From positions 1 to 43,897 of IMG/VR virus record IMGVR_UViG_3300025115_000022: 43,897 nucleotides of DNA; one strand, 5' to 3'. Of the stretch, positions 6,899 to 41,006 are shown in pieces. Origin of the DNA: a virus. Under the pieces are notes generated by a model. The model made no database searches, had not been told where the DNA came from, and saw only the letters and a program-made list of their open reading frames with translations. Position 1 is the first letter of the stretch, and each line of letters begins with the position of its first letter. A program made the position numbers and the translations under genes.

Positions 6899-9889
6899 TT
6901 ACGGGTTGCGCGGGTCTCCTTCACCCTCTCTACGCTCTTTCTTCTTTTTGTCCTCGCTAGAGGGGTCGTCCTTTTTGTACGCTTCCCTGGCCCCGAAGGC
7001 GTGCTTCACGAATGTCTCGGTCCTGTCGCTCCATGTCTTGGTATCGCCAGCCAGGTCGTACTCGTTCAGGTCCCTCCACGTTGAGAACCCGTTCCTGAAG
7101 TGCCTGGCCATCATGTTCAGGTTGTCCGAGACATCGGTGTAGTCCTCGTCCTCCTCAAAGCCGATCATCTTCGGGTCCCTGTTGATGCCCGTGATGTACT
7201 GCACGGCCATCTGGGAGTCGCTGGGGAGGTCACCACGCTCGTGGAACATCTGAAGCGCGGCGACATTGGCAGCCCACATCATCTCCCTCAGCGGAGGGCC
7301 AGTGAAGATCTGCCAGAAGGCACCACCGTAGTTGTTCCACTTGCGGTCGTTCGGATCCTTTGAGGTCGCCTTGGCGATGAACTTGCCGACTTCGGTGGCA
7401 TCGTTGCGGAAGTACCCCATGGCACGACCACCGAGGATACCCTTCTCGCGTTCCAGGAAGACACCCAGGCCCATCAGTCCGATCATCACGGAGATGTAGG
7501 CGGCCCTGGGATTGACCACGAAGCCTGCAGCCTTTTCATCCGGCGTAGGCTTAAACCAATCTGGAGATGCCTTCATCTCGTGGTACATGCGGACGGCATT
7601 CAGGGCCAGCTCAGTGTTCTGGCCAAGGCTGTACTGGCGGAACAGGGTTGACAGCTTGCCAAGCTGGAAGCCGCCCAGCTTGACATCCTCAATGGAGTGA
7701 CGGGCAAGGGCATCGTACTCCATCTGGGTACGTCGCACGAAAGTCAGGCCCTTCTCGAGAGCCTCGATCTCCTTGACCTTGATCAGCTGGCTGTCGCGCT
7801 CATTCTTTGTCCCATTGAGCTTCGCCTTGTCGAGGCCGTAGTGCTTGATGATGGCTTCGGGAATGTGGAGACCCTCCTCGAACAATGGGGCGATCTCCCT
7901 GTCGACGTAGTTGAGGGCCTGGATGGCGGCCAGATCAAAAGCCTGGTTGCGAAGCATGTTCTCCACAGCAGTCCACGGCAACAATGCGATCTCAGCGCCT
8001 TTTTGAACTGCTTCGTTGGCCTTGCTGGAGAATCGCCCTTCAACCAACGCTGCTTGCTGCCGCTCTTCACTCGCATACAACCGTGCGAGCTGTCGGTCCT
8101 TCAGCAACCCAAGGATGCCAACACCCGTAACTCCGGCATCGTCAGCAGTACCATCGAACAGGACAGAAGAGCTGAGCTTGATGTTGTAGTCCCTTTTCAG
8201 GGTCTCCAGGAAGCTCTTGACCTGCCCTTTGTTCGTCATCAGCTGACCCATCAGCTGAGCGTATCTGTAGCCACCCAGTTTGGTAGAGATCTGCGCTTGT
8301 GCTTCAACAGCGTTCTTAACGGAACCAGCAATACGAACACCACCAAGCAGGGCCCCGGTAGCAAAGGCGAGAATGGCGGAAGACGAGTTGTGTCCAGCAC
8401 CATGGCTCTGGGTTCCGATCAGCTTGCTGCGGATGTGCTGTGCATACTTCTCCATGGCTCTGGTGTATGCCACCAGCTCCATCGAGTTGTTGTTCATCGC
8501 CACTTCATGGATGCCGGACAGGTAGTCTGACACGATCAGATGGAACTTTGCCACATGGTTCGAGTGCAACATGCTCTGCATGTAGGTTCGCATCACAGTG
8601 GTGATGTCGAAGTTGCGGATGTCCTCTGGCATCTCGCCTTGGCCTCGGCTCCTGGTGAAGGAGCTCTGGCTGCCGATGGCCTGTCTGATGATGTTCAGGG
8701 CATCAGTGGAGTTGTTGGCCAGCTTGACATCATCCACCATGTCTTTGAGTGTCTTGACCAGGGACACTGGGTTCATCTCGACAACGGCCTTGCGCGTGAA
8801 GTAGCCATCCTGGACGATACCCATGTCGGTGATCATCCTCGTCACATCGGCGACATCCTGCTCATCTCCACCAGCACGCCTGACCTCACGAACCACGACA
8901 TCTCTGATCGTTTTGACCGTGTCCTGGCCGATATCTCGGTAGACCTTGTTGGCCGCCTCAATCTTCTCAACAAGTGAGTTGACCTTGACGGCGCTGACAC
9001 GGTGCTTCTTGGCAACAGTGCCGAGCTCGCCCCTGTAGGCGTCGTCGCTTATGGCCTTTTTCTCAATCAGTCGAACGATGTCACGATTCAGGCCAGCGCC
9101 GATGTTGGAGGTACGCTCGTCCTGCCCTTCACGCTGCGCGTACAAGAGGCTACGCTGTTCCCACAGGGCATCTTCTTTCTCCTTCAGCTGCTTGTCTTGG
9201 CCGTCTTCCTCCCACTCGGCCTTCTTCTCCTTCTTGGCAACAGCTCTTGCCTGGCGAAGGGCATTGATCCGCTGCAGCTCGTTGTCGATCCTGCGGGCTT
9301 CCCTCATGTCGTTGCGGTAGGTGTCACCACCGAGATCCTTGATGGCGGTGTTGAGCTCTCCGATGACCTGTGAGGCCCTGTTCATCTTGGCCACATGATT
9401 GGACTGCTGGCGAGTGACATTGTCCCACAGGCGCTGTCCGTTGTACATCTTCGTGGCTACCCAGAACCTGCCGGTTACCGGCATGGCCAGATGCCAGAAC
9501 TTCTTCATGCCTGGGAGCTTTGACACATCGACGTTTTGGATGCCGCGAGCCTGGTCGATGATCTTGCGACCATCTTTCATGGCCTTTTCAGCCGTTGACT
9601 CGAGCTCCTTGAGCCGTCCTTCGATGCGGGCGTACTCTGCATTTGAGAACAGCTGGTTGCCTGGATTGCGAGAAACCTCGCTGACCATGAACCAGTCGAT
9701 AATGCTGTTGAGCTGGGCATCCGAAGGCGGCTTGCCATTGAAGGTCATGCCAATCGCCCAGCGGACAAGCTCGGGCACTTCACCCTTGCCGATGATTCTA
9801 TCCTTGATGGCCTGATGGCGTCGGCCAGTTTCAAGGATGTCGTCGTCAATCTTGGTGACGCCGTTGCTGCTTTTTCCACAAGGGTCCAC
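6899..9889 (-). CDS. Large internal virion/ejection protein, 996 aa
   Basis: The last gene of the leftward structural operon. GTG 9889 follows AAGGAG, which overlaps the stop of the giant gene. The product is mainly helical. Residues about 200-270 are a highly charged coiled coil (RAVAKKEKKAEWEEDGQDKQ). Two hydrophobic stretches lie near 503-523 (AILAFATGALLGGVRIAG) and 797-815 (AYISVMIGLMGLGVFLE). The C-terminus is a polar Lys/Glu tail. The layout suits an internal head protein that enters or crosses the membrane with the DNA. No enzymatic motif was recognised. The assignment rests on position and composition. Confidence 0.68.
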   Translation of the reverse strand: MDPCGKSSNGVTKIDDDILETGRRHQAIKDRIIGKGEVPELVRWAIGMTFNGKPPSDAQLNSIIDWFMVSEVSRNPGNQLFSNAEYARIEGRLKELESTAEKAMKDGRKIIDQARGIQNVDVSKLPGMKKFWHLAMPVTGRFWVATKMYNGQRLWDNVTRQQSNHVAKMNRASQVIGELNTAIKDLGGDTYRNDMREARRIDNELQRINALRQARAVAKKEKKAEWEEDGQDKQLKEKEDALWEQRSLLYAQREGQDERTSNIGAGLNRDIVRLIEKKAISDDAYRGELGTVAKKHRVSAVKVNSLVEKIEAANKVYRDIGQDTVKTIRDVVVREVRRAGGDEQDVADVTRMITDMGIVQDGYFTRKAVVEMNPVSLVKTLKDMVDDVKLANNSTDALNIIRQAIGSQSSFTRSRGQGEMPEDIRNFDITTVMRTYMQSMLHSNHVAKFHLIVSDYLSGIHEVAMNNNSMELVAYTRAMEKYAQHIRSKLIGTQSHGAGHNSSSAILAFATGALLGGVRIAGSVKNAVEAQAQISTKLGGYRYAQLMGQLMTNKGQVKSFLETLKRDYNIKLSSSVLFDGTADDAGVTGVGILGLLKDRQLARLYASEERQQAALVEGRFSSKANEAVQKGAEIALLPWTAVENMLRNQAFDLAAIQALNYVDREIAPLFEEGLHIPEAIIKHYGLDKAKLNGTKNERDSQLIKVKEIEALEKGLTFVRRTQMEYDALARHSIEDVKLGGFQLGKLSTLFRQYSLGQNTELALNAVRMYHEMKASPDWFKPTPDEKAAGFVVNPRAAYISVMIGLMGLGVFLEREKGILGGRAMGYFRNDATEVGKFIAKATSKDPNDRKWNNYGGAFWQIFTGPPLREMMWAANVAALQMFHERGDLPSDSQMAVQYITGINRDPKMIGFEEDEDYTDVSDNLNMMARHFRNGFSTWRDLNEYDLAGDTKTWSDRTETFVKHAFGAREAYKKDDPSSEDKKKKERREGEGDPRNP

Positions 9890-9898
9890 GGTTACTCC

Positions 9899-12800
9899 TT
9901 AGGGCGTGCCGCAGTTCTTACCAGTCCGCTGCTGCTCTTCGGACTTCGCTTCACGGTTCCGCTGTGCCTGGCTGTTGATCATCTTCTGTTCGATGGAGAC
10001 ATCGGGCTCACCCTTCTTGAAGACCAAGGCGGCCTTCACAGAAGGGTCGGTCATGGCCCTGGTGACAGCACCAAGAGCCCTGCTGAAAGAACCGACGGCT
10101 TCCTTGGTGGCATCAATCCGCTGATTGGCGTCAAGGTACTCGACTTTGGTTCCTTCCTTCGTGGCAATGACGTTCTTGCGCTCTTCGACAATCGTCCTGA
10201 CATCAGCACGCTCGGTAATCAGGCCGTCACGGAGGTCAGCGCCAATAGTAACTTCACTGTCACCGAGATCAGCGATTGACTCGAGGCCCATGCCACGGAG
10301 CATCGATCCCTGGTCAACTTTAATCCAGATGTTGACCGCTCCGCCACGCCAGTCTTCAAGGTTCAACACGTTGGTGAAGGCCTCGGTCAGGAGGGAATTG
10401 GCTCCCCTGACAGGACGGCCAATCGCCACCGATACAATATCGTCCTCAAACTCGTTGAGCTCTCTTGTTGAGTAGCGGCGGATCATGTTCTGCCTGGCGG
10501 CCTCAAACACGGGATTATCAATCGGGAGATACTGCAGCGAGTGACGTACCATCATTCGCTGTTCCCCGATACGACCATCGAAGTCGGTCATGGCCTGGAA
10601 CTGCTTCAGAATCCCCTGGGACCCGATGACGTTGCCGCTTGAGAACGCCTCGGAATACACCATGGCGTTGATGGTGTATGCGTCCATGATGCTCTTGGCG
10701 ACATTGGCATCGTAGTCGGCAACAGCCTTGATCAGGTAGTTGGCCACAGGCTTGTAGGCCGTGGTCCTCTGCCCGTTCAAGTAGTAGTAGGCGTTGGCTG
10801 CCGGGATCAGGATCCTGGCGGCAATGTCTTCAGTGTGCCTGCCATCAGGGTCGATCTGCCTCATCAGATTCTCGACCAAGAGGTTGGTAATCTGCTGGGC
10901 GTACTCGGGCCTGATGCCTTCATCGCCGCCCTTGCCGCTCATGGCCTTGCCCCAAACCGCCGAGATCTGGCCAAGCATCCTGGCCACCGCGTTGTCCACC
11001 TGCTTGGACTGGTCGCCATCGAACGTGTCCTCGATGTTGGCCAGCGTCGTCTTCATGGCGTATCCGGCAATCGTGCTGTCACGGAGCTTTCGCAGGACGT
11101 CCTGTCCGAAGCCATTTTTGCCGGGGACAATGGTCGGGAACTTGCCATCGTTCGACCAGGTAACGGCCCTGGTGAGGATGCCTTCGAGCTGCTTGATCTC
11201 ACGGTCGTAGTAGGAGCCAGCCCCACCAGCCTTGGCCCTCATCCCCTGCAGCCTGGACAGCTCTTGCCTGAGCGAAGACTCGTTCTCGATGGCCTCGAGC
11301 ATGCTGAGAAGCTCATAATCGTCGGCAGCCCTGCGGGCCGTTTTGGGCGCTTCCTTGTCGGGATCAACGCCCATGGTCGAGGCATTCTTGTTCAGAACAT
11401 CACCGATCTCCACCGTCCACTGGTTCACGGCGTCAATGAAGGTGCGGTTCTTCTTGAACTCGAACCTGAAGCCCCTGTTGGTTCCGTCCGTGCTCTGCGA
11501 GACAAGCCGAGGGTCGCCCCTTTCCTGACCACCATTGATGTGGATCAGGTACTTGACCAGCTTCTCGCCAGACAGCCTGGCGTCGGGGTTTCCGAGGATG
11601 TCGACGTAGTTACGGGCCATCCTGATCCGCTCAGACGGAGTCCTTGCAATCACCTTGTTACCGTCACGACCGTCACGCATCAGGGCAGAGCCGTTGACAA
11701 TGAGGCCCATGACGTCGTTCAGAACGCCTCTGTCGAACTCATTCAGCGGCTGGTCTTGATCGCTCCTGACGTTGTTCTTGCTCATGGCATTCTTGACGTA
11801 CATGTTGCCGAAGATCAGATCAAGGACGTTCACCTTGTCGAGGCTGATCTCCTCGTTCACGCCGGAAGAATTCCTGACAGTCACCTTCGAGTCGGACAGG
11901 AAAGAGCCAGGGGTGTCCAGCACCGCCTGGGTGACAGTGTAAATCTGCTGCCAGCGGTCCATGAAGTCCCACTGAGAGGTCTGCAGATCGCCGACAGGCC
12001 TGATGATGTACTCCTCGTTGTTGTCGATGTAGCGGAACGAGTACTCGCCACCCATCATCTTCTCGAGGGCACCTCTGGCCGAGATCAACTGTCCCTTCAT
12101 GGCAGCAGCGGTAGCTTGGTCGGCGATGTACTTCAGGTACTGGTTATCGGCACCCCACGGATCCGACTTCACCAGCGGAGAGAAGGCGGTTTTGGTCTTG
12201 CCATGCTGGTCGCCAAGAGGACCGATGATGTTCTTCAGGCGAACGGCCTCACCAAGGGCAGTGCGGGGCATGGCCCAGGTGTACTTGAAGGTGTCGAAGT
12301 CGTAGTCGCCTTCCATCTGCTCGACAACGTCACGATGGTTCATGACAGCGAGTCCGCCCTCTTCAGGGTCCAGGAACCCACGCATCATGAAGGCAACGGT
12401 GTCGTTCAGGCGGGCCGAAGGAGACCGCTGGGCAGTGCCAATGATCCCCCATGCCACTGGGGTTTCGCCGTCGAAGTCAACGACATCACGCACGGCACCC
12501 CTGGGATCATTCACGGGGTCACTGGGTCTGGAATACCGACGGTTGAGCTCGAACCCACGGTAGGGGTTCTTGGGATTGCTGCGGTCGCCAGCGATCCGGT
12601 ACCCGAGCAGGGATGTGAAGAAGCCCATGAGGTCTTCGTTGTACATCTCCAGCTGCTTGTTAGAGCCACGAGGAGTCGTCCAGCGGCGATTGCTCGTGTT
12701 CCGGCCAGCGGCCCTGCCAGCGTTCCTGGAGTGCGCGTAGTAGGCCTGCAGGAGCTCGTTGCCGAACCTGCGGGCAAGGTCTTCGCCGCCCCTGGTGCTG

Positions 12801-15800
12801 GTCAGTTTGACCAGACCATCGACAATCCCCCTGACGGTACCTTCGATATCCTCGATGCTCTTCCCGGACAGGACCTCGACAACACCGTCATTGGCAATCT
12901 TGAGGGCTTTATCGAGCCTGTCGGCATCAATGTGCCTCAGGTCACCCGTGCCAATGTTGCCCTGTCGGTCATAAGGAGAGAACAGCTCCAGAATGGGAGC
13001 CACCTCAGTGGCGTTCATGTTGCGGCCACTGCCCCAGAGACCACCAGCCCAGACGTCCTCAAGGACATTGGCGAGGAATCCGCTTACCGTGTGATGATTC
13101 TGAGCAGCCCTGTTGGGGCCGCGTTCGACCTGCCTGGTGGATCTCTTGAACTTGTCCAGGATCCCCATGTGGTTGATCGTGGTCTGTCCGCGAGCCACGG
13201 CCCTCTGACCGCCAGTAGAAGACGGGGATGCCTGCGATGCGTAGTTGTCGGCATTCCCGTACTCGAACGTATCGTGCGCGTGATCCGCACTATCCAAAGC
13301 AGTGTAGTCCCTGATGCCCCTGAAAGTGTGCCTGCCGGTAGCGGGGTCGTAATCCCACTCGACGAACCTGGTACGCTGGATGCCCATGAAGCCCTGTCTG
13401 AGGTTGACGAGGGTTCGGCCCATCTGGACACCGCCGACCATATGACCAGACTTCAGCGAGAAGCTGTAGTCAGGACGCAGGGCTGAGGTGCCCCCATGGA
13501 AGGTGTAGCCCTTGTAGAGCCTGTCCTGAACCACCTTGAACAGGCGTTTCTCGACCTCGCCCTTCCAGATCGGGCTGGGAGACCCATAGGGGTTGCCAAC
13601 CATGGCAAACTCAAGCAGCGATGCCGTATTGTTCAGGTGGTCTTCGGGTTTGTGAGTGGCGTCGAAGCCACCACCGCCATCGTCATCCAGCTTCATCTCG
13701 AACAGGGCTCGGGCCAGGTTCATGTCGCCGATCCTGTAGCCAGCCACCTTGGCAGCAAGGCTCAGGACGCTGTTGACCGGGAACATGTCAGCGTCATCAA
13801 GCATGGCCTGGATACCAGCAGCAGACCAGCCCTGCGTCATCTGTCCAGTCATGATCGACTGGGTCTGGCCAGGGTCGAACATGTTCTGGAACTTGATGTC
13901 GCTGGTCGAGAGCGTCAGCACGTTCGGGTCGTTGGCCATGAATTCGACGTTACCGCCAGGGTCACGACGAAGCATGTGGGCGGCCTCAGCGAAAGTGACG
14001 GTGGAGGAGGCACCGTTGGAGCCTACGAACCTGACCATGCTGCCGACCTTCGGAGTGCCCAGCTTGGTGCTCGACATCGGGATGATCATGGCCACCCCAA
14101 GCCTGTCAGCCAATCTGGAGTTCTGCTCCGGCATGGCGGTGATCAGCGTCTTGGTCAGCAGGTTCTCTCCGGGGCGAGTGTTCATCTCGCCATGGATGAA
14201 GCCCTTGAACGCGCCAAAGTGCATCCTGCGCCGACTCTGGCTTCCGTCAAGGCCCCTGGTGCTGCGGTTCCACATTTCACTGGCCTGGTCAGGGTCGAAA
14301 CCCTCGACCATGGTGAGGATGTCCAGCATCCACGGCTGTGCATTGAGGTTGCCATCGAGGCCCTCAATTGCCCCAATCCTTCCCCACTCTTCTTCATGGA
14401 CGATGGCGGCCTTGATCCTGTAGGACCCGTCAGCGTCCCTGTAGAGGCCAGTCTCGTTGCCAGTCATGTATCTGCGGCGGATAGCTTCCGCCACGGACAT
14501 GCTGAAGGCGGCGTTGTCGATGGGCCTGTAGGAGTCGCTGGCAATCTGCGTGTACCGCTTCAGAACCTTGGTATCACCAGTGGAGTCAACCAGACGATTC
14601 CGGCCATGGGCCACGGCGCGGATCATCATGGTGTAGATGTTGCCGACCTCGGCTTCGGTAACATGGCCAGCCCTGATGGCGTCACGGAAGTCCGCGTGGC
14701 CCTCTTGCCTCATTCGAGCAGCCACGCCCCTGTACTGGGCGGCGAATTCGGCCAGGTTGGTACCGTCGAGGTTACCAAAGAGAGCATCGGTCTGGGCCAG
14801 GAAGGCGTCCATCTCTGCCTTGGTCTGGGCCATCCTGATGAGCAGGATCTTGGAGTCACCGAACCGCATCAGCCACAGCGGACGACTGTCGTCCATGGCC
14901 CAGCCTTTTTCATAGGTGGCCGCAACAGCGTTCATCTCAAGAACATTTGGACCATCCCCACTGGGGTTGGAAAGACCAAATTTCAGGAAGTCCCTGGCCA
15001 AGGCAGAAAGGGTGCCATCGGTGTAACCATACGTCAGACTGCGGCCAGTAGTCTCGTCATGGTCGTTGAGCTCCAGGCTGTTACCCCTGTCTGGGCCAAG
15101 GAAGCCCTCAGCCAAGTCACCAAACTCGTCGACCATGGTCCTGGAGCGGTAGTCGTACCGCCCTGAGTAGTTGCCCTTGGTGACACCAACGGGCTTGGGG
15201 GTCGCCTGGGTGGCACTTGCCGACTCAATGACCCCATCCACGGTCCCAACCTCACCACCAAAGGGAGTATCGGCATCGGCGATATCGATCCTCTTGGCAT
15301 GGGTACGAGTCAAGACAGTGTAGGCCCTGCGATTCACCAGCTGGGAGAACAGACCAATGTGGTCCGTGCGAGACATGCCAACGAGCGTATCAAACACGGC
15401 GCTCTGCACAAGGGGGCTTCCCTGTCTGCTGCCGATGTCCATAAACGTCGAAGCAGTGGCCTTGATGATGTCGTTCAGCATGGCTTCACCGCCGTACTGC
15501 CCGGTACCATCGTACTTGCGGTGAACGGCACGGAGAGCCTCAGTGACCTCAGCAGTCAGCGCTGCACGGCCAACAGTACCGACCCGCATCTTGTCGAACA
15601 GCTTGAGGATCGAGGTACCACGGCTGATGGAGCTCTTGTGCGAGAAGAGATCCAGGTTGTTCAGGTAGTTGACGTTCTTGTGGACGTCGCCGACCCAGTC
15701 CCTGAACAGGTTGGCCTCTTCTCCCATGCCGAGGTCGAGCTTCTCGAGCCTGTCGAACGCCTTCTTCAAGGACTCCTGTGTGACCTTGCGAAGCTCCAGC

Positions 15801-18800
15801 TTCGGTACACGCTTGCCGTCCTCTGTGACCCACTTGATGGTACCGATGCCCTGAATGGCGGCACGAAGCCTGGCCATCGAGGAAGCGGAGCCGCTACGGA
15901 CCAGGTAATCGATCTGGCCCAGGAACCAGTCGGCCCTCTTGGCCACCTCGGCATCGTCCTTATATGCCCTGGATCCCTTGATCTGCTTGGTCATGCTATC
16001 GACGAACCTCTGCCTGCGCTCAGGAGCGACATCACGCAGAGGAGCAAGCACCTCACGCAAGATCGGCATCCCTCCAGCCTTGAAGAGGTTGGTCTTCAGT
16101 GCCGTGGGGGTGCCATCGGCCTTGCCAGTATCGGTGTGCCAGCCCCTGTAGTAGCCAGCATCGATCAGGCTCTGGCCCATCTCCGTGTAGGCATCGAGAT
16201 CAAAGCCATAGTACTCCTCAATGGCTTCCTTGATCAGCGTGTCCTTGACGCCAGGATCTCGTCCCTCGGCCTCAGCCGCCTCCATCTCCTTGACGACCTT
16301 ATCGACCAGGAATTGCTTCAGCTTGGACTGATGCTTCCCCTTGCCGAGGATCGGCAGGGTTCTGTAGTTCGCCAGGTCGACCTCAGAAAATCTGTCACCA
16401 AGACTCCTGCGAAGGAGATCGGCAAGGGTTCTTGTGGACATCTTGGCGAGATCGCCGATGTTGCCGAACTGCTCGTTCAGCTCTGGGTCAAGGTCGGAGC
16501 GGATGATGTCGGCCACGGTCAGCAGCCGTTCGCCAAGGCGTCCGTCGGACACAGACAGCTTGTAGACCTTGATCGCGGCTCTGGCAAGAGCCTGCGACTC
16601 GGACATGTTCATGTCCTTCAGGGCGTAGATGTCCCTGAGGATGGCCGCTGCCTGGGCCCTGGTGCCAACGTAGACACCAGCATCCATCAGGGCACCGAAC
16701 AGGCCACCACTGCGAGAGCCCTGGGACTGCTCGTAGATGGGGTTGTAGTCTGCGCCCTCGCCAGGGATTTGGGAGTTGTCACCATTCCAGAGCTTGTTGA
16801 GGTCGAACGTACCGCCAAGCCTGCGCTCGTCGTAGTCGGACATCTTGTTGATGACTTCGTTTTGCCCGACAGCCTCAACAGAGGCGACATGCACGCCATC
16901 CATGCTCGCCAGCATGTCGTAGAGCCACCTGAACTGGATGGCCTTGATGCGGTCGATCTCGGAGCCCTGCATCATCTCGTCGAGGAAGGCGTCATCAACT
17001 GGACGGAGGATGTCATTGCCAGCAATACCGCCCAGCTTGCCAGTGAAGAACAGGCCAGAGGCCTTGGCAGCGGCTATGATTGCCCTGCGGTCCAGCAGGA
17101 CCTTCGACGGGTCCTTGGTCGCCATGCCCATGGGCGTTCCGAAATGGAACAACTCAGCAGCCGTATGCCTTCCAACAGCGCCCAAGGCGTCCAGCAGGTT
17201 GTTCTTGAGCGAAGACCCCTGGTCGCCGAAACGCATCTTGGAGACGTCGATACCGATCTCGGCAAGGTCAGCATGCAGAGCGTCGAGGATCTCCTGGACG
17301 AACTCAACACCCTTGCCGTCCTCGGTCATCATCTTGCCCTTGCGGAGGTAATCGCCACTTCTGTCCACTCGCATGGCAATGTTCGGGATGTCGTCAAGGA
17401 CGCTGATGCGGCTCGGCAGAGCGCCAAGCAGGTCGAAGATGTCGGCAATCGCCACATTGACTGCATCCTGGCCCTCGAACTGGAAAAACGAGAGCTTATT
17501 CGGCAGCCCCATGTGCAACACGGATTGGCCATCTTTGGCGATTAGCTCACCAGCACGCTGGACGGCAGCAATGGCCTTCGAGGTTGTCTGATAGAGCTCC
17601 ATTCTGGCGGCCTGGTAGATCTTCTCGATCTTCAGCTTCTCGCCAGGGCTGTACAACCCGCGATCAGCGAGAACCTTCTTCAGGCCATGGAGGACATGGC
17701 CAAGGAACTCGCCCTTGTTCGGCATCTCCCGGATCTTCTTCATGTAGTCTTCGCGCTGATCGGGACGAGTGCCATCCTCGAGGGTGAACTCGCTGCCCAT
17801 CTTCACGCCAGAATTGATCAGTGAGGCGAAGACCTTCTCGGCAATGGCAAGCTCGTCGTAGGTGACCTCCATGCCCGTCTTGGGCTTGTCAGATCCCTCG
17901 AACTCGTAGGGAATGGTCTCGTATGCCTTTGCGGCCGCGAGGTTCTCAAAGCCACCTGGGAGAAGCTCAAGGTTCGCCTCGCCAATGGGCTTGGCAATCT
18001 GGGTGCCCCCTCTGGCAACCGAAAGGGCGATCTGCTGTCCGAGTTCCCTGGTGAGCTTGTTCACCGAACCAAGAGCCACTCTGGTCAGCAGGTGGTCAGA
18101 GTCAGGCTCGGGAACATTGATGGCCATGAAGCTGTCGGTGTCACCACCGTTCTGGTACAACTGAGCCTGGATCGCGTTCAGATCATGGCGGATACGAAGC
18201 CACCGAGGCGGCTTCCGCATGGGCTTGCCGTCCTTGTCAATCAGCCCATCCCTGAGGCTCATCGGAACGCCCGTGGCATACCTGAGATTGGCACCAGCCA
18301 TCCAGGAGAAGGCACCGTGGGTCAGGACACTGCTAACCTCATCGGGCGTCATGCCATCCTCGGCCAGGTTCCGCATGAGGTGGATGCCGCCAGTCTCCAT
18401 GAAGATGGCACCGGAGGTCAGGAGGCTCCTCGTGAGGTCCTCGACAAGCGCACCCCTGGCTATATTCTTCATGATATTGACCAGGACTTCGGTATCCTGC
18501 GCCATGGCCTGGATGATGCGCTCCTGGGCGGCCTGAACGACCTTAGAGGCCGGATCGCCACTGTGCAGCAGCTCCAGGTCGGCATCGGAAATGGCAGCGC
18601 CAAGCCTGGACTTGGAGAAGATTCCAGTCGACCAGCCGTTGATGAACCGCTTGGAGTGCTCACGAGCCAAGGCAGAGACCCAGGCCAACTGCTTGGGCGT
18701 CAGCTTCTCCAGGCGGCCACGAGTCTGATCAATCAGCTTGCGGGCAGACTTCTCGCCCATGGGAAGATGAGAAGACATCGAAGAGCGGACGGACTTCAGG

Positions 18801-21196
18801 GCCTCAAGAATCTGTTCATCACCCTCGACACCAAGAGCCTTGGCAGCTCTCTCGGCTACCTTGCCGGAGGCCTGGGTCATGAATGTGATGAACTCCTCGA
18901 TCTCGGTCATTCGACCAGTACGGCCAAGGGCCATCTTCACGCCAGCCTTCATGCTTGCGAAGTGGCGCTTGTTGAACCAGGGAACAAGTCCAAGGCCACC
19001 CTTGGCCCCGAAGGCGGCACCAATCAAGAACTGCTCGCCAGCCCCACCAATCTGGGTGAAGCGCTCCTTGCTGAAGCTGTTCTGCATGAGTGTCCTCATG
19101 GCCCACTCGTTGTAGCCGAAAAAGGTCTTCGGGATCTCTTCCGGGTTCAGGCCAGACTCGGGGTCCTGTGCGGCCAAAGTGTAGTCGAACAGGATCTTGC
19201 TGTACTGCATATTCATGGCCTGGACGACGTTGCTGAACCCTTCAAGGGTAGCGTCCATGCCGATGCGAGCGATAGTGTTGCTGACCTTGTTGCCAGCGAT
19301 CTTCGTTGCGAGCCTGCCAGGCATCATCCCGGCAAGTGGGTTCGCCAGGAGCTCCTGGGCCTTCCTGCTGGCAGTCACGGCATCATCGAAGTTGTCCGAC
19401 ATGCCACGCAGGATGGTTTCCATGGCGTCATCGGTGAGGTCAGGCATGAACTTCTTGAGCTCAGAGGCCACCTCGGCGACGAAGGCCTCACCAGCGGACT
19501 TGCGGGCATTGGCTGCGACCTCGCCACTGACTGTGTTGCCAAGCGGGCTTCTGCGGGCAGCGTTCCAGGTTCTGGCCGTGGAGCGGGCAATGGAGTCCCT
19601 GACGATCTGCTCGACCCTGAGCAGACCAGCAGGCGTCAGCTTCTTGGTGACAGCATCGACGCCCTCCTTGCCTGCAAGCGCCTCGATCCTGTCGACAATG
19701 GTCATGCCAGTTTCGGCAGCCTTGGTGCCAGCCTTGCCCTTCCAGTTCATGACACTCTGGGTGAGCATGTTGGCAACTCTTGTACCGCGAACACCGCCAG
19801 CAACGTAGTCGAAGGAGTTCATAAGGCGGACTTGGATGCCACCATGAGAGATGGAGGCAGCCGCCTTGGCGGTGGTACCAGCCAAACCAGCGATGCCCTT
19901 ACGGGCAGCAGCTTCTCTGGCCAGGGCGATCTTCTTCTCGCCAGCCTCCACCTTGGCGAAGAACCCACCGATATTCTTGCCAGCAGTCGCAGCGCCAGGA
20001 ATCTTTGATCCCTCGAGCTTCTTCCCGGCAGCCTTGATGCCCCTCTCAAGAAGGCTGGTTCCAGTGTGCCCGGAGCCACGAAGTCCAGGAGTGCTCTTGA
20101 AGGCCTGAGCGACCCACTGGTCGCCCCTGGTGAAGAAGCCAGCAAGCTCACCAAGCGACATCGCCATGTTGCTGTAACGGTTTTGCTCGTACCCGAACTT
20201 ATTTTTGTCGGTAAACCAGCTAGGATCAACGACCCCGCTCTGGACGCCCCAAGCGGCAAGCCAACCGGGGGCACCAACGAAAGTGCTATTGACCAAACCA
20301 CCAGCAGCTGGGATACCAACGCCAAGTCGGGAATCCTTGTCGCCAATATCGAAGTCCTTGTATTCCTCCTGGCGGCGCTCCCAGGGGTTCTGCATGGCTC
20401 TGGCGGCAAAGTGGGCGGACCAGAATCTGTTGTCGTTCAGGTCCTGCGCCGGGAAGCCATTGGCCTTCCAGTACTCGTTGACGCGCCGACGAGCGTCAGG
20501 GCTGTCGATGATGGCCGGAGCCAGGAGCCCAAGTTGGTCCTCTCGCGGACGGACATAGTCGCCAATGCCAGCAGCCCTGCCGACAATCCTGCCTTCGTCG
20601 ATCTCCGACTTGGCGCCGGAGCTTCCGAGCAAGGTGACGTTCTTGAAGGCGTCGACGATGAAGTCGCCAGTCTTGTGCAGGGGACCACGCTGGTCTTCAC
20701 CTGTGCTTTGGACCAGAGGCCTCTTCTCGTACTGCGTCCTGCCATCGCCGAGGTCGGTAGCCACAACACCGTTGTCTTCGGCGGCCTTACTGATCTGGTC
20801 ATGTGAGCTGGCAATGGCCTCACCAAATCTGGTGGTGAAGATGTTTTGGACCTCAGCCTTGGTCCCGCGCAGCACCCTGATCTCGTTGGCAATTTCTGTA
20901 GGACTAGCATCCACGCCCTTGAGACGCAAGCCTTCGGCAGCCTGATAGAACTTCTCAACGGGGATGCCGGTTGCCTTAGCAACCTTCTCGATGAGAAGCG
21001 CATCTGCTTCCTCTTCTGGCGAGAGCCCCTCTCTGTATCCTTCAACGACACGCTGTCGCATCTTATCGTCAGAGTGTTCCAGGAGGCTTTTACCGTGCTG
21101 GCCGACAACTGCTTCTGCAGTCGGGACAGAAACACGATCTTCGCTGTAGTGAACCTGCTTGTCCTTTTCCTGGGTGACACCAACGGGCTTGGCCAT
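9899..21196 (-). CDS. Giant 3,765-aa virion-block protein, candidate two-barrel RNA polymerase
   Basis: One uninterrupted frame covers a quarter of the window. Its ATG overlaps the previous stop (TAATG). The first ~800 residues have Ala/Gly-rich helical stretches like ejection proteins. Further on is a series resembling the two double-psi beta-barrels of multisubunit-type RNA polymerases. These are VAMIIPMSSTKLG (lysine 2378), SDIKFQ (D2433, Q2437), an MTGQM segment, QRSPSARLND (R2924, P2926), and NHRDVVEQMEGDYDFD with aspartates 2964, 2966 and 2968. The last part parallels R-x-P followed by NADFDGD in bacterial beta-prime. I infer a virion-packaged polymerase like crAss-like gp66. The match is by eye, the overall similarity is low, and a purely structural protein remains possible. 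Confidence 0.6.
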   Translation of the reverse strand: MAKPVGVTQEKDKQVHYSEDRVSVPTAEAVVGQHGKSLLEHSDDKMRQRVVEGYREGLSPEEEADALLIEKVAKATGIPVEKFYQAAEGLRLKGVDASPTEIANEIRVLRGTKAEVQNIFTTRFGEAIASSHDQISKAAEDNGVVATDLGDGRTQYEKRPLVQSTGEDQRGPLHKTGDFIVDAFKNVTLLGSSGAKSEIDEGRIVGRAAGIGDYVRPREDQLGLLAPAIIDSPDARRRVNEYWKANGFPAQDLNDNRFWSAHFAARAMQNPWERRQEEYKDFDIGDKDSRLGVGIPAAGGLVNSTFVGAPGWLAAWGVQSGVVDPSWFTDKNKFGYEQNRYSNMAMSLGELAGFFTRGDQWVAQAFKSTPGLRGSGHTGTSLLERGIKAAGKKLEGSKIPGAATAGKNIGGFFAKVEAGEKKIALAREAAARKGIAGLAGTTAKAAASISHGGIQVRLMNSFDYVAGGVRGTRVANMLTQSVMNWKGKAGTKAAETGMTIVDRIEALAGKEGVDAVTKKLTPAGLLRVEQIVRDSIARSTARTWNAARRSPLGNTVSGEVAANARKSAGEAFVAEVASELKKFMPDLTDDAMETILRGMSDNFDDAVTASRKAQELLANPLAGMMPGRLATKIAGNKVSNTIARIGMDATLEGFSNVVQAMNMQYSKILFDYTLAAQDPESGLNPEEIPKTFFGYNEWAMRTLMQNSFSKERFTQIGGAGEQFLIGAAFGAKGGLGLVPWFNKRHFASMKAGVKMALGRTGRMTEIEEFITFMTQASGKVAERAAKALGVEGDEQILEALKSVRSSMSSHLPMGEKSARKLIDQTRGRLEKLTPKQLAWVSALAREHSKRFINGWSTGIFSKSRLGAAISDADLELLHSGDPASKVVQAAQERIIQAMAQDTEVLVNIMKNIARGALVEDLTRSLLTSGAIFMETGGIHLMRNLAEDGMTPDEVSSVLTHGAFSWMAGANLRYATGVPMSLRDGLIDKDGKPMRKPPRWLRIRHDLNAIQAQLYQNGGDTDSFMAINVPEPDSDHLLTRVALGSVNKLTRELGQQIALSVARGGTQIAKPIGEANLELLPGGFENLAAAKAYETIPYEFEGSDKPKTGMEVTYDELAIAEKVFASLINSGVKMGSEFTLEDGTRPDQREDYMKKIREMPNKGEFLGHVLHGLKKVLADRGLYSPGEKLKIEKIYQAARMELYQTTSKAIAAVQRAGELIAKDGQSVLHMGLPNKLSFFQFEGQDAVNVAIADIFDLLGALPSRISVLDDIPNIAMRVDRSGDYLRKGKMMTEDGKGVEFVQEILDALHADLAEIGIDVSKMRFGDQGSSLKNNLLDALGAVGRHTAAELFHFGTPMGMATKDPSKVLLDRRAIIAAAKASGLFFTGKLGGIAGNDILRPVDDAFLDEMMQGSEIDRIKAIQFRWLYDMLASMDGVHVASVEAVGQNEVINKMSDYDERRLGGTFDLNKLWNGDNSQIPGEGADYNPIYEQSQGSRSGGLFGALMDAGVYVGTRAQAAAILRDIYALKDMNMSESQALARAAIKVYKLSVSDGRLGERLLTVADIIRSDLDPELNEQFGNIGDLAKMSTRTLADLLRRSLGDRFSEVDLANYRTLPILGKGKHQSKLKQFLVDKVVKEMEAAEAEGRDPGVKDTLIKEAIEEYYGFDLDAYTEMGQSLIDAGYYRGWHTDTGKADGTPTALKTNLFKAGGMPILREVLAPLRDVAPERRQRFVDSMTKQIKGSRAYKDDAEVAKRADWFLGQIDYLVRSGSASSMARLRAAIQGIGTIKWVTEDGKRVPKLELRKVTQESLKKAFDRLEKLDLGMGEEANLFRDWVGDVHKNVNYLNNLDLFSHKSSISRGTSILKLFDKMRVGTVGRAALTAEVTEALRAVHRKYDGTGQYGGEAMLNDIIKATASTFMDIGSRQGSPLVQSAVFDTLVGMSRTDHIGLFSQLVNRRAYTVLTRTHAKRIDIADADTPFGGEVGTVDGVIESASATQATPKPVGVTKGNYSGRYDYRSRTMVDEFGDLAEGFLGPDRGNSLELNDHDETTGRSLTYGYTDGTLSALARDFLKFGLSNPSGDGPNVLEMNAVAATYEKGWAMDDSRPLWLMRFGDSKILLIRMAQTKAEMDAFLAQTDALFGNLDGTNLAEFAAQYRGVAARMRQEGHADFRDAIRAGHVTEAEVGNIYTMMIRAVAHGRNRLVDSTGDTKVLKRYTQIASDSYRPIDNAAFSMSVAEAIRRRYMTGNETGLYRDADGSYRIKAAIVHEEEWGRIGAIEGLDGNLNAQPWMLDILTMVEGFDPDQASEMWNRSTRGLDGSQSRRRMHFGAFKGFIHGEMNTRPGENLLTKTLITAMPEQNSRLADRLGVAMIIPMSSTKLGTPKVGSMVRFVGSNGASSTVTFAEAAHMLRRDPGGNVEFMANDPNVLTLSTSDIKFQNMFDPGQTQSIMTGQMTQGWSAAGIQAMLDDADMFPVNSVLSLAAKVAGYRIGDMNLARALFEMKLDDDGGGGFDATHKPEDHLNNTASLLEFAMVGNPYGSPSPIWKGEVEKRLFKVVQDRLYKGYTFHGGTSALRPDYSFSLKSGHMVGGVQMGRTLVNLRQGFMGIQRTRFVEWDYDPATGRHTFRGIRDYTALDSADHAHDTFEYGNADNYASQASPSSTGGQRAVARGQTTINHMGILDKFKRSTRQVERGPNRAAQNHHTVSGFLANVLEDVWAGGLWGSGRNMNATEVAPILELFSPYDRQGNIGTGDLRHIDADRLDKALKIANDGVVEVLSGKSIEDIEGTVRGIVDGLVKLTSTRGGEDLARRFGNELLQAYYAHSRNAGRAAGRNTSNRRWTTPRGSNKQLEMYNEDLMGFFTSLLGYRIAGDRSNPKNPYRGFELNRRYSRPSDPVNDPRGAVRDVVDFDGETPVAWGIIGTAQRSPSARLNDTVAFMMRGFLDPEEGGLAVMNHRDVVEQMEGDYDFDTFKYTWAMPRTALGEAVRLKNIIGPLGDQHGKTKTAFSPLVKSDPWGADNQYLKYIADQATAAAMKGQLISARGALEKMMGGEYSFRYIDNNEEYIIRPVGDLQTSQWDFMDRWQQIYTVTQAVLDTPGSFLSDSKVTVRNSSGVNEEISLDKVNVLDLIFGNMYVKNAMSKNNVRSDQDQPLNEFDRGVLNDVMGLIVNGSALMRDGRDGNKVIARTPSERIRMARNYVDILGNPDARLSGEKLVKYLIHINGGQERGDPRLVSQSTDGTNRGFRFEFKKNRTFIDAVNQWTVEIGDVLNKNASTMGVDPDKEAPKTARRAADDYELLSMLEAIENESSLRQELSRLQGMRAKAGGAGSYYDREIKQLEGILTRAVTWSNDGKFPTIVPGKNGFGQDVLRKLRDSTIAGYAMKTTLANIEDTFDGDQSKQVDNAVARMLGQISAVWGKAMSGKGGDEGIRPEYAQQITNLLVENLMRQIDPDGRHTEDIAARILIPAANAYYYLNGQRTTAYKPVANYLIKAVADYDANVAKSIMDAYTINAMVYSEAFSSGNVIGSQGILKQFQAMTDFDGRIGEQRMMVRHSLQYLPIDNPVFEAARQNMIRRYSTRELNEFEDDIVSVAIGRPVRGANSLLTEAFTNVLNLEDWRGGAVNIWIKVDQGSMLRGMGLESIADLGDSEVTIGADLRDGLITERADVRTIVEERKNVIATKEGTKVEYLDANQRIDATKEAVGSFSRALGAVTRAMTDPSVKAALVFKKGEPDVSIEQKMINSQAQRNREAKSEEQQRTGKNCGTP

Positions 21197-22824
21197 TATT
21201 TTGACCTCGTGGTGTCAGCCAGCCCCTCGACCAGGACCTTTATGTATTGGGAGCTCCTGCGAATGGCCCTCAGCCCATCCCTGTTCTCTGGAGAGATCTC
21301 TATGCCATCGTCAGGGTCAGTGTAGTCCTCAATGTCGCCGAAGTAGTTCATGGGGTCAAAGACTCCCTCGTCCAGCTCTTTCCCGTCGTCCTTGTAGGCA
21401 CTGACAATAGTCTGGACAAGACCAGAAATGTCCATCCCAAGTTGGGCAAATGCAGCAGCCTGACCACGCGCTTCGCCCACGGCCTTAACGGCAACAGCGG
21501 CCTCTCTCCAGTTCTTGGGAATGACTTCGTTTTGCTGTACAATGATGTCGCCAAAGCCATCGAGAGATGCTTGGGCGTTGTCACGGTTGCCGTTGTTGTT
21601 CCAGACGACAGAAGTAGCTCCAGCGCCACCGATATCTGCCAGACCAACAAGGTCAAGGGCCGATAGCTTGTATGTTTCAGCCTTGGACCTGAATGACTCG
21701 ACGACGGCATCACGAGTTTCAGGATTGGCTCCCATGCCCAGTTCTTCCGCAATAGCGTCGACCTTGTCGCTCCACTCCTGCTGCCCAGCTTCAGACTTGG
21801 CAAATACGAGCGACTTCAGTTGTCTCCATGAAAAGTCCTGGGATTCTCCAAGGCCATCAAGCGCCGTGTAAAGGCTCCTCTCAGAAGCCAGGAACCCTCT
21901 TGAGACGGTCTTTGGGGTTTCGGGAGCTTTAGGATCCGTCGCCAAGCCCCTGGCAAGCTCAACCAGGTGATTTCCGATCATGGCCTGCCTGCCGTCGATG
22001 ACGATCTCCTTGTACTCGTTGTCGTCCAGGATCTCCCTGGACTCGCCAGCCTGGTCCTGGAGTCTCGAGTTGACATAGGCCGAGACACCAGCAAGGGCTC
22101 CTTCAGCGTTCACCTTGGCATCACCAGAAGCTGGTCCGATACCAAGATTAGAATAGAGCTCGCCGATGAATTCGTACCTCACACTAGTGTTTCCGACATC
22201 GTTCTCCCAGTACAGGTCCCTGGCGAGATCACTGGTGGCCGAATTAGCCACTCCGCGCTGCTCCTTGACCGTGGTCTGGAATGTGGCCATGTGCTGGCCA
22301 AAGGCACCCATGACGGCAATGCCACGCTCTAGCGGAATGAGCTTTGAGTATATGATCTTCTCCTTGGCTCCGAGCATCGCCATCAGCGGAGCCCAGCCAA
22401 GTTGGATCTGGGCCAGCTCGTTGGTAAGCCGCAGCCCTTCGATCTGATGAGGCAGCATCGTGTTTCTTGCATTGGTTTGGCTCTTGTACTCGGCTACCTG
22501 GACTGGGGTCAGTTCCTCCCTGGCCTTGATCTCGCTGGCAATGTTCGCCCGCATGGAGATGCTGTTGGCCATCTGGTCAACCAGGCCGATGCCCTTGAAC
22601 CGGATGTCGGCCTTCTGAAGCTCGTGCTCGTACTCCAGCTTCTTGGAGTCGATCTCCAGCCTTCTGGGCAGAAGTTCACGCTCCGCCCTCTGGTCTGCCA
22701 GCTGGCTTTCCATCTGCATGAGGCGAAGTTGGTTCTCCTCCGACCTTTGCTGCCTTTGGTCGATGACATCTACGGCCTGGAGAAAGTCCCCGGCCCCGTA
22801 CCTGTTGAAGAGCGGTTTTGCCAT
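21196..22824 (-). CDS. Internal virion protein, coiled-coil, 542 aa
   Basis: ATG 22824 follows AGGAGACTGAACC. Residues 20-75 form a long charged coiled coil (QRQQRSEENQLRLMQMESQL). The rest is helical with scattered polar loops and no transmembrane segment or catalytic motif. It lies directly before the giant gene, with stop and start overlapping as TAATG, so the two should be made together. By position it corresponds to the internal core proteins of podoviruses (T7 gp15-like role), but sequence similarity to those is not evident. Confidence 0.62.
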   Translation of the reverse strand: MAKPLFNRYGAGDFLQAVDVIDQRQQRSEENQLRLMQMESQLADQRAERELLPRRLEIDSKKLEYEHELQKADIRFKGIGLVDQMANSISMRANIASEIKAREELTPVQVAEYKSQTNARNTMLPHQIEGLRLTNELAQIQLGWAPLMAMLGAKEKIIYSKLIPLERGIAVMGAFGQHMATFQTTVKEQRGVANSATSDLARDLYWENDVGNTSVRYEFIGELYSNLGIGPASGDAKVNAEGALAGVSAYVNSRLQDQAGESREILDDNEYKEIVIDGRQAMIGNHLVELARGLATDPKAPETPKTVSRGFLASERSLYTALDGLGESQDFSWRQLKSLVFAKSEAGQQEWSDKVDAIAEELGMGANPETRDAVVESFRSKAETYKLSALDLVGLADIGGAGATSVVWNNNGNRDNAQASLDGFGDIIVQQNEVIPKNWREAAVAVKAVGEARGQAAAFAQLGMDISGLVQTIVSAYKDDGKELDEGVFDPMNYFGDIEDYTDPDDGIEISPENRDGLRAIRRSSQYIKVLVEGLADTTRSK

Positions 22825-24307: not shown

Positions 24308-24485
24308 CGCCCACCTCTACCCTCTTCCACCGTCCGTTGATGCGGGAATACCTGTAGGTCTTCCCACCGATTTCCACGAACCTCTCGTCGCCGTCACGGC
24401 CCTCGTTCTTGCCAGGGGCGACCTTCGACATCCTGGGGCGGTCGGTAGAACCGCTGCGGTTCCTCTCGACCTCGATGCGGCTCAC
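24300..24485 (-). CDS. Small basic hypothetical virion-block protein
   Basis: A 61-residue frame. I chose the GTG at 24485 for its GTGA overlap with the nozzle stop. The product is very polar and basic, with a short beta-hairpin-like end (FVEIGGKTYRYSRINGRWKR). It may be a small structural or assembly protein. No family is recognised. Confidence 0.5.
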   Translation of the reverse strand: MSRIEVERNRSGSTDRPRMSKVAPGKNEGRDGDERFVEIGGKTYRYSRINGRWKRVEVGDA

Positions 24486-27190
24486 TTGAGGCGCTTCGGT
24501 TTGTAGCTCAGACCAAGGCTTTCGATTACGCCACACCAGTTCACACCTCCCACGGGTATGGTCCTGAACGTCAGGTTCAGCCAGTTCTTGCGTAGCGAGA
24601 CGCGAACCCTCTTGACGTTCGGGCCGTCCTTGGCGTCGAAGTACATGTCCTGCACCTGGGGCGGGAGCTGTGTGTACCAGACACCGATCCGCAGCTTCTC
24701 AGAGCCAGACCCATCGTAGTCGATGAAGAGGCTCTTGCCCTTCTTGATGATCTCGGCAGCGCCCATGGTGATGGGGCCAGTGCTGACCCCCCACTCGAAC
24801 GGGACGTTGACGCTCGGGTAGGAAGCAGTATACATCCTAATGGTATCAGAGACACCAGGGTTCCTGTTGACAACTGTTGAGATGTCGATACCGTCGACAC
24901 TGAAGAACCGCACCAATTCGCCCTGCATGGAATCGGCGGCCAGGTCATGGGTGTGCCACTGCCCACGGTCGAAGTCGAAGACCAGGACATTCTGGGCACC
25001 GTTACAGACCCAGAGCTGGCGCATGCCGGGCTTCCAGGCCAAGGTCACCTTGGCCTTGTCCATGAGCCTGTAGGTCTTGTGGATGGTGCGACCGTCGATC
25101 TCGCTGATCTTCTGAAGCTGCTCCCCGTTGAACCAGTAGATGTCAGTCGGGCTGCAGAAGAACACGCCGACGGCTGTCTCTACGACGGCCTTGCTGCTGA
25201 TACACCCGATGTCATTGAAGGACCCGATCTCGCGCCAGGACATGTCCGAGCCACTAGAGATATCCAGGATGTAGCTGGAGGTGCTGTGGAGCACCAGAAG
25301 CCTCCCGGAGAAGCTGGCGAGAGCAACACCATAGCCGTCATCTCTCGGGCCGTAGTCGATATAGTTCGACTTTCTAAACACCCGGTACTTGCGGAACTCA
25401 CTGTAGCACAATCTAGCTGGCCGACTCTCACCGTCCTGGTTGACGTTCAGACAAACCATGCGGCCAGCAGCAACAGTCGCCACTTTTGGTTTGACGACAC
25501 TCCATTCGTTTTCGTTGGCCCCGTTGATCTGCTCGAAAGAGAAGCCTGGGGTCGAGTCGTCAAGATACAGGAACAGCGGCTTCCTGTCTGCGCCCATTGC
25601 CGTTCCGGTCCCTGTGTATGTTAACCACGACAAAACGCCATGCGGCTTACCTTTGACACTGGGGTTTACCGCCTGAACGAAAGCAACACCACCAATATCA
25701 GACCATAGCTCCTTTGTTTTGTCCGCGTTCAGAAGGTTCGGGATATGTGAGTAGTAAACCGGGAACATGCTCTTCCCGCCACCAGAAATGGTTGGAGTCA
25801 TTTGAACCTGGTCATCCCAAAGGGCCACGGTCGCTGAGCCAGCTCCCGTGTCGTACTGATAGCCGAACACTCCAACAGATGTAAGTTTGTAATACCAGGC
25901 CGAGAGGTCGTCCTCGTCAAACTCAAGGGACCGCTCAGGGTCGTTAAGGTACCCGAGCCAATATGTGTGCGTTCCCATTCCAATGAGCGTTCTCGGGACA
26001 AATGTCATGCTGCCGCTTGTGTATCCAAGCCAACCAGTAGTCAGAGCCGCAAGCCCAACAAAAGTTCTTGCCTTGTTCCAGTAGAACAAACCTGGAGCAC
26101 CCATAGGCTGCCCACAGTCTGCCTGTGTCATGCCCTGTGGGTAGTCTGTCCCTTCCATTTCATACGGCTTGTTCAGTACGTCTTGCGAAAGAAGAGAGTC
26201 GGCGGCCACTGACCTTTCGCTCAGAACATTCGCAACGTAGATCTGCTCGTAAACGGCCTCTGGGGTTCCAGCATCGCTCACATACGCCGTTCTGCGATAA
26301 ACGTTGATCGCGGCTACTGAATCGGGAAGAGCTCTACTCACGGAAATGGTCGTCGCTATACCAACACCAAGATGGCTAATGGTTGCCAAGTTTCCAAAAT
26401 CAGTCCTGACCTGTACCGAGTTTGACATCGCGCTAACTGAGCCATCAATAAATTCGTATTGGACGGCAAACTCTGCGGCGTAAATGCCTTTTGCTGCAAC
26501 CAATGGAATATAGTCGGCAATATCCCTCGTGTCGCTAGTTAGCGAAGAGTACCTGAACGCGGCCATGACAACAGCATTCTTGTTCGGGAGGCAGAAGTGG
26601 TCGACAGCAGCGAGATACTCGGACCTGTTATCTGTCCGTGGCGGGCTGGCCGGAACAGTGTGTCCCACCATGGCCAGATGCAGCGTTGGTACGTCTTCAG
26701 TGTGATTAACCAGAACCCAGTGCCCAATTATTGGCTGCAAGGCGGCGTTGCTGTTGCCAGTACAATACAAGGGCGCTCTGAATCTATACTGAGTCTTAAT
26801 GAAAGACGCCGTGTGAATATGGTTCAGTTGCCCGGACGTCAGTGAGACCACATAGATGTCGTTGCCACGGCAGTACAGCTTTGAGTCGTAGTCAATACTG
26901 GCAAACGATAGCGTCTCTGTCGTGTTGAGCGTCTCGTCGTGAATCTGGATGCTGGTCCTGAACAAGCTAACACGAAGAACCTTGGTACTGTCCAGAGGGC
27001 CCGGGATGTACTGAACGTCGATCAAGCCAAGTGTCTGGATGTTCTTGTGCTGAACCAGCACATCTCTGGGCCGCAGGATACCGGGCCGATCCAACTCGAC
27101 GTTCAGAAGCTCACGAACGGTCTGGGGGCCGACGTCTCCATCAGTCTGGCCGCCTTCCCACCCGATCTGCCACAGCTGCTTCTCGGCCAT
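24482..27190 (-). CDS. Tail nozzle/stabilisation protein, beta-propeller-like
   Basis: A 902-residue protein. It is rich in beta strands with repeated GVALASFSGRLLVLHSTSSYIL-type blades, DIYWFNGEQLQKISEIDG and LRQLWVCNGAQNVLVFDFDRGQW, as in propeller-containing podoviral nozzle proteins (P22 gp10/T7 gp12-like role). The N-terminus (QTVRELLNVELDRPGILRPRD) fits the same family type. It would form the distal short tail tube that closes the portal channel and recognises the cell surface. It lies after three adaptor-like genes and before the internal proteins, the usual podovirus order. The family assignment is from layout and motifs. Confidence 0.7.
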   Translation of the reverse strand: MAEKQLWQIGWEGGQTDGDVGPQTVRELLNVELDRPGILRPRDVLVQHKNIQTLGLIDVQYIPGPLDSTKVLRVSLFRTSIQIHDETLNTTETLSFASIDYDSKLYCRGNDIYVVSLTSGQLNHIHTASFIKTQYRFRAPLYCTGNSNAALQPIIGHWVLVNHTEDVPTLHLAMVGHTVPASPPRTDNRSEYLAAVDHFCLPNKNAVVMAAFRYSSLTSDTRDIADYIPLVAAKGIYAAEFAVQYEFIDGSVSAMSNSVQVRTDFGNLATISHLGVGIATTISVSRALPDSVAAINVYRRTAYVSDAGTPEAVYEQIYVANVLSERSVAADSLLSQDVLNKPYEMEGTDYPQGMTQADCGQPMGAPGLFYWNKARTFVGLAALTTGWLGYTSGSMTFVPRTLIGMGTHTYWLGYLNDPERSLEFDEDDLSAWYYKLTSVGVFGYQYDTGAGSATVALWDDQVQMTPTISGGGKSMFPVYYSHIPNLLNADKTKELWSDIGGVAFVQAVNPSVKGKPHGVLSWLTYTGTGTAMGADRKPLFLYLDDSTPGFSFEQINGANENEWSVVKPKVATVAAGRMVCLNVNQDGESRPARLCYSEFRKYRVFRKSNYIDYGPRDDGYGVALASFSGRLLVLHSTSSYILDISSGSDMSWREIGSFNDIGCISSKAVVETAVGVFFCSPTDIYWFNGEQLQKISEIDGRTIHKTYRLMDKAKVTLAWKPGMRQLWVCNGAQNVLVFDFDRGQWHTHDLAADSMQGELVRFFSVDGIDISTVVNRNPGVSDTIRMYTASYPSVNVPFEWGVSTGPITMGAAEIIKKGKSLFIDYDGSGSEKLRIGVWYTQLPPQVQDMYFDAKDGPNVKRVRVSLRKNWLNLTFRTIPVGGVNWCGVIESLGLSYKPKRLK

Positions 27191-40989: not shown

Positions 40990-41006
40990 GCATTCCACTC
41001 AACAGT

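Follow-up and report, generated by a model that had tools for sequence, protein, structure and literature searches.

A putative gp66-type RNA polymerase core within a giant virion-block protein of 38–50-kb phages

Introduction

Could an 11.3-kb gene lying among the virion genes of an uncultured 44-kb phage encode an RNA polymerase (RNAP) that travels with the DNA? Virion-packaged two-barrel RNAPs, named for their two double-psi beta-barrels (DPBBs), are known from crAss-like, jumbo and P23-45-like phages. The DNA analysed here, which we call the window, is an IMG/VR virus record of 43,897 bases that may be incomplete. Its largest protein was flagged in an initial annotation, made from the sequence without database searches, as a possible packaged polymerase on account of four short motifs. 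We followed this up with homologue searches, profile–profile comparison, structure prediction and gene-order analysis. Our results make it likely that the giant is a gp66-type enzyme associated with the virion: a DNA-dependent RNAP with two barrels in a single chain, flanked by some 2,200 N-terminal and 600 C-terminal residues to which it is fused.

Results

The giant protein matches nothing in routine searches

Re-reading the frame gave the same result as the initial annotation: a single uninterrupted 11.3-kb reading frame with an ATG start, 9899–21196 on the minus strand, encoding 3,765 residues. The motif positions claimed there are also exact, with SSTKLG starting at residue 2375, SDIKFQ at 2432, QRSP at 2923 and GDYDFD at 2963 (Table 1). 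DYDFD is the sole DxDxD in the protein; about 1.3 such motifs are expected by chance at its aspartate content of 7.1%. The DxDxD motif by itself is thus at chance level and not significant, and it gains significance because the motif residues are conserved among homologues. Pfam and PHROGs scans of the giant protein returned no match. A HMMER comparison of its family profile with PDB sequences gave chance matches only, none of them an RNAP, and tblastn of its core and of a relative's core (from IMGVR_UViG_3300023198_000958) against 50,697 phage genomes found no match.

Table 1. Features of the giant gene and its surroundings, in window coordinates
Feature	Position	Strand	Evidence or remark
Giant protein with putative RNAP core towards C-terminal end	9899..21196	-	single frame; homologues in three other phages
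Putative RNAP core, residues about 2271–3130	11807..14386	-	profile–profile matches and conservation peaks
SSTKLG, residues 2375–2380; K2378 = candidate catalytic lysine, DPBB-B	14057..14074	-	K invariant in 4/4
SDIKFQ, residues 2432–2437; D-x-[KR]-F-Q element	13886..13903	-	D2433, F2436, Q2437 invariant
GG, residues 2568–2569; candidate DPBB-A start	13490..13495	-	follows predicted helix; invariant in four members
Poorly conserved insertion, residues about 2620–2880, GG to R-x-P	12557..13339	-	GG-to-R distances
QRSPS, residues 2923–2927; putative R-x-P element of DPBB-A	12416..12430	-	invariant in four members
DYDFD, residues 2964–2968; putative metal-binding DxDxD	12293..12307	-	three Asp invariant in four members
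NQYLKYIADQATAAAMKGQLIS, residues 3018–3039; conserved, after putative active site	12080..12145	-	within second conservation peak
996-aa protein downstream of giant	6899..9889	-	homologues at same place in two relatives
542-aa protein upstream of giant	21196..22824	-	synteny in two relatives
902-aa virion protein	24482..27190	-	weak PHROG matches (virion structural, internal virion, head-closure); synteny
Major capsid protein	29567..31225	-	phrog_1328, E 1e-24
Portal protein	31898..33916	-	phrog_156, E 1e-79
Terminase large subunit	34000..35499	-	phrog_38, E 1e-88
Terminase small-subunit candidate	39291–40070	-	
DnaB-type helicase	2314–3603	+	plus-strand genes, outside virion block

Candidate catalytic residues are invariant across distant homologues

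Peptide and DNA pattern scans of IMG/VR yielded three full-length homologues amid many chance matches. The closest, a 3,754-residue protein of IMGVR_UViG_3300037041_000905 (31% identity to the window giant), was reached through a portal gene 68% identical to that of the window. A 3,544-residue homologue in IMGVR_UViG_3300023198_000958 (23%) came from a DNA pattern for QRSPSAxxNDTV, and a 3,529-residue homologue in IMGVR_UViG_3300033151_000217 (21%) from a three-member portal alignment. Overall identity among the four proteins is 21–36%. No homologue was found in the bacterial genomes scanned.

Conservation within this family concentrates on the proposed active site. The four-way alignment leaves K2378, D2433, F2436, Q2437, GG2568–2569 and D2964/D2966/D2968 invariant, along with Q2923-R-S-P-S2927 and N2931-D-T-V2934; K2435 is replaced by arginine in one member. 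The initial annotation had named loss of K2378 or of the three aspartates among homologues as grounds for abandoning its reading, and all four residues are present in every member. The aspartate motif itself reads DYDFD and DYDYD in two members and DNDGD in the other two, where it matches the classical pattern DxDGD. Nowhere in the protein are 60 consecutive residues better conserved than at 2910–2969, with 18 of 60 positions invariant against a maximum of 14 in 1,000 shuffles. Directly after it, from residue 2977, comes a second peak (15/60 invariant). This strongly conserved block, at about 2977–3040, lies after the putative DPBB-A, the side on which two-barrel enzymes carry the bridge helix and trigger loop; the NQYLKYIADQATAAAMKGQLIS stretch inside it is possibly the bridge-helix region. 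A third peak lies outside the core, at residues 1669–1728 (window 16013–16192), where 12 of 60 positions are invariant in the four members.

Family profiles connect the core to crAss-like RNA polymerases

Profile–profile comparison places two segments of the giant protein, in order, on two catalytic blocks of crAss-like RNAPs. The template profile was built from residues 850–1450 of gp66 of Cellulophaga phage phi14:2 and from eleven relatives, ten of them from Crassvirales and one from Flavobacterium phage Fpv1, and the full-length four-member giant-protein family served as the query in hhalign. The best match joins residues 2271–2449 to gp66 952–1112 (score 37.3) and the second-best joins 2921–2970 to gp66 1319–1367 (score 26.4); the two are colinear. 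Among controls, none of 99 column shuffles scored above 24.2, and reversing the profile gave 28.2. Scores of 14–27, at other places, were obtained with further protein families of the same phage and with giants from other phages. P23-45 gp96, an RNAP proven by experiment, served as positive control and hit the template where our family does, scoring 29.5 and 22.5.

These matches are weak when taken singly. As a single comparison the best one has an E-value of 0.0076 and a probability of about 5%; such probabilities are small because the giant-protein profile draws on just four sequences. The second match lies within the noise of unrelated proteins (up to 27.4; 28.2 for the reversed profile) and counts mainly through its position rather than its score. 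Single-sequence comparison with full-length gp66, gp65 and gp67 gave nothing at the right place, and direct profile comparison of the family with P23-45 gp96 and YonO gave no match. The relation to crAss-like RNAPs is clear only when family is compared with family.

The aligned residues correspond motif by motif. K2378 pairs with gp66 K1065, which is invariant in 12 of 12 crAss-like RNAPs; by analogy with this enzyme family, K2378 would be the catalytic lysine. SDIKFQ aligns with ADWKLQQ of gp66 and DNFRIQQ of Fpv1, and the second basic residue, equivalent to K2435, varies among crAss-like RNAPs too. QRSP aligns with the YRIP/YRVP of these enzymes (YRIP in gp66), and DxDxD with SDFDID of gp66.

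Spacing between elements is largely kept, and the added length falls mainly in one interval. The positions K2378, K2435, GG2568, R2924 and D2964 of the window giant correspond to K1065, K1098, GG1235, R1322 and D1361 of gp66. From R to D the distance is 40 residues in all four members and 39 in gp66; from the second lysine to GG it is 124–133 in the family (133 from K2435) and about 136 in gp66. From GG to R it is 297–356 in the family versus about 88 in gp66. The initial annotation had remarked on the 586 residues separating lysine and aspartate motifs. About 210–270 extra residues lie between GG2568 and R2924 and account for most of that gap. This poorly conserved stretch would sit inside the presumed second barrel (DPBB-A).

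A family-only structure model retrieves gp66 first

Structure search points to the same enzyme, through models of low confidence. AlphaFold gave a pLDDT of 32.8 for a 1,001-residue core with three sequences, and 38.5 for residues 2255–2625, the DPBB-B region, modelled from family sequences only. Because of this low confidence the barrels are not seen directly. The 2255–2625 model was built without any crAss sequence; in Foldseek it nonetheless ranked 6VR4 (phi14:2 gp66) first among 350,542 PDB chains (E 0.0018, probability 1.00), with the next match at E 1.3. The model and 6VR4 superpose poorly (TM 0.25, rmsd 13.9), as one would expect at such low confidence. The four top Foldseek matches in BFVD are all pieces of phage proteins of very large size; two have names, one belonging to crAss-like phage cr127_1 and the other to an unclassified podovirus. 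The larger 1,001-residue model found no match and is too poor to be meaningful. Colinear profile matches, motif spacing and the first rank of gp66 together support the polymerase reading of the initial annotation.

The giant gene belongs to a conserved virion block

Gene order suggests that the giant protein is packaged in the virion. The initial annotation placed it among internal-protein genes, and terminase, portal, capsid and internal or connector genes indeed share its block. The minus-strand block runs from the terminase small-subunit candidate through terminase, portal, capsid and the connector/internal protein to the giant and then a 996-residue protein. A metallo-phosphoesterase-like gene (phrog_221; window 38303–39310) adjoins the small-subunit candidate. 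In both relatives mapped, IMGVR_UViG_3300037041_000905 and IMGVR_UViG_3300023198_000958, the order is kept and the giant occupies the same place. Portal, capsid and terminase are 68%, 58% and 68% identical to those of the window in the former, and 53%, 50% and 56% in the latter. The 996- and 542-residue proteins flanking the giant have no Pfam or PHROG match and are possible co-ejected partners.

The structural genes set these phages apart from Crassvirales. The portal of the window is about 20–24% identical to Bcep22-type and KPP25-type portals over at least half its length, its best matches being in Bcep22-type phages, and the best capsid matches are Mel-JY34, CRP-810 and a Vibrio phage. We considered membership in Crassvirales and rejected it, since the best portal and capsid matches lie elsewhere and the records of giant-carrying phages span 38–50 kb against genomes of about 90–100 kb.

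Pfam identified no T7-type RNAP among the large proteins of this possibly incomplete record; a search for PF00940 was also empty, but its control was equally silent and it hence carries little weight. We looked for a repeat that might mark early promoters and obtained no convincing candidate. Beside the start of the plus-strand genes, window 40926–41200 is the only stretch with 59–64% AT in a genome of 58% GC, and it holds a hairpin, ATCCAC-GTTAA-GTGGAT, at about 41122–41140. This stretch may be an early control region, and none of the relatives showed a recognisable counterpart.

Discussion

The evidence above suggests how a packaged polymerase of this kind might be built and deployed. Its core would span residues about 2271–3130. 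K2378 would line the lysine barrel (DPBB-B) together with the D-x-[KR]-F-Q element, while R2924-x-P2926 and D2964/D2966/D2968 would lie in the metal-binding barrel (DPBB-A) together with the extra 210–270 or so residues. By this model the giant polymerase would share the phage head with neighbouring internal proteins and be extruded before the DNA or together with it; once in the cell, it would refold and transcribe the early genes first. Precedents exist for both cargo and fusion: crAss-like RNAPs travel as cargo of the virion and are believed to refold after extrusion (PMC7886860, PMC10172136), while P23-45 gp96 is a proven RNAP fused to a giant virion protein (PMC10770324).

Of the rival readings, a polymerase that is not packaged is the likeliest. 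P23-45 possesses a second two-barrel RNAP, gp64, that is not a virion protein (PMC10770324), and the giant could likewise be made during infection. We regard this as unlikely. In the window and both mapped relatives the giant gene forms one unbroken series, all in the same direction, with the genes for terminase, portal, capsid and internal proteins, and the phi14:2 RNAP gene is similarly placed among proteins that, according to its record, were detected in virions by mass spectrometry. A non-virion enzyme would moreover have its core fused to about 2,900 further residues. A packaged protein might instead have kept a degenerate core with a purely structural or ejection role. The arginine that replaces the second lysine in one member would fit such decay, as would the speed at which the giant evolves (21–36% identity, compared with about 50–68% for portal, capsid and terminase). 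The other candidate catalytic residues are nevertheless all exact while the remainder diverges, no part of the protein is better conserved than the catalytic block, and that second basic residue is variable in crAss-like RNAPs as well, which leaves degeneracy improbable.

Two further readings would do away with the two-barrel enzyme. An ordinary giant internal (ejection) protein might resemble a polymerase by accident: a DxDxD is expected about 1.3 times by chance, the giant has no Pfam, PHROG or PDB sequence match, and phages with related portals carry giants without an RNAP signal. Accident would also have to produce invariance across distant homologues, colinear profile matches, kept spacings and an isolated Foldseek match to gp66, and we judge it very improbable. 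An N4-type virion RNAP would be T7-like, with a right-hand fold. The size of the giant recalls the N4 enzyme, which has about 3,500 residues and is ejected alongside two further proteins (PMC12633501). Pfam, however, matches nothing in the giant or the other large proteins, the conserved residues are of the two-barrel type and the fold match is gp66; an N4-type enzyme is scarcely credible here. A packaged two-barrel polymerase remains our preferred reading.

Among known systems, phi14:2 gp66 and its relatives resemble the giant family most. They share the succession of elements and their spacing, from the lysine element through D-x-[KR]-x-Q, GG and R-x-P to DxDxD, are very large single chains encoded in the virion block, and include, in gp66, the best profile and fold match of the family. 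Compared with gp66, the family is too distant for BLAST or HMMER, contains the 210–270-residue expansion between GG and R-x-P, has its core at about residues 2271–3130 of 3,765 and occurs in 38–50-kb records with capsid and portal unlike those of Crassvirales. The giant had been described as larger than typical members of this enzyme family. That is partly right; several crAss-like homologues lie in 12–14-kb ORFs and exceed 4,000 residues, and the size of the giant is not exceptional.

The P23-45 and N4 enzymes offer more limited parallels. P23-45 gp96 likewise has an RNAP core with DxDxD inside a giant virion-block protein (PMC10770324) and a similarly weak profile relation to crAss-like RNAPs. 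It is fused to a tape measure with its core N-terminal, whereas the core of the window giant lies towards the C-terminus; P23-45 is a long-tailed phage, and the two proteins show no direct profile match. The virion RNAP of N4 (Schitoviridae) has a T7-like fold, and its active site is unrelated to that of two-barrel enzymes. It shares the length of about 3,500 residues and, on our reading, its nature as the ejected polymerase of a podovirus (PMC12633501).

Although the enzyme type itself is already known, its setting appears to be new, as judged against the systems compared above and not against the 23-family survey of PMC10770324. We find a two-barrel polymerase candidate in 38–50-kb non-Crassvirales phages. 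Also new are the place of the core, near the C-terminal end of a protein of 3.5–3.8 thousand residues, and the extra stretch in the presumed catalytic barrel. These phages probably form an unrecognised 38–50-kb lineage, structurally outside Crassvirales, with a gp66-type RNAP in a giant ejection protein and an additional domain in the catalytic barrel. If so, phages of very different kinds would share the strategy of packaging a two-barrel polymerase, transcription might be coupled to the entry of the DNA, and a lineage of much smaller phages would carry the polymerase within a virion-block protein of 3.5–3.8 thousand residues. Such phages would offer a small system in which to study how a giant enzyme leaves the capsid, refolds and starts transcription during DNA entry. 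They would also extend, by one divergent branch, the clade to which the RNA-interference polymerases belong.

Giant proteins are also found in phages with related structural genes. Bcep22-type phages (Lessievirus, Namazuvirus), whose portals are about 21–22% identical to that of the window, encode 'DarB-like' giants of 4,667–4,841 residues in the virion block; we rejected these as relatives, since they do not align to the window giant and carry no RNAP signal. The giant of Vibrio phage douglas 12A4 was rejected likewise, direct alignment showing no relation and no RNAP signal being present. The giants of Mel-JY34, CRP-810 and VS-ABTNL-3, which have similar capsids, were set aside for lack of an RNAP signal at the right place. 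Among related-portal phages, the giants of BcepIL02 (L006, 109–14112), POI1126 (L007, 73–14598) and douglas 12A4 (L008, 5572–14652) span 3,026–4,841 residues, show no RNAP signal and are unrelated in sequence to the window giant.
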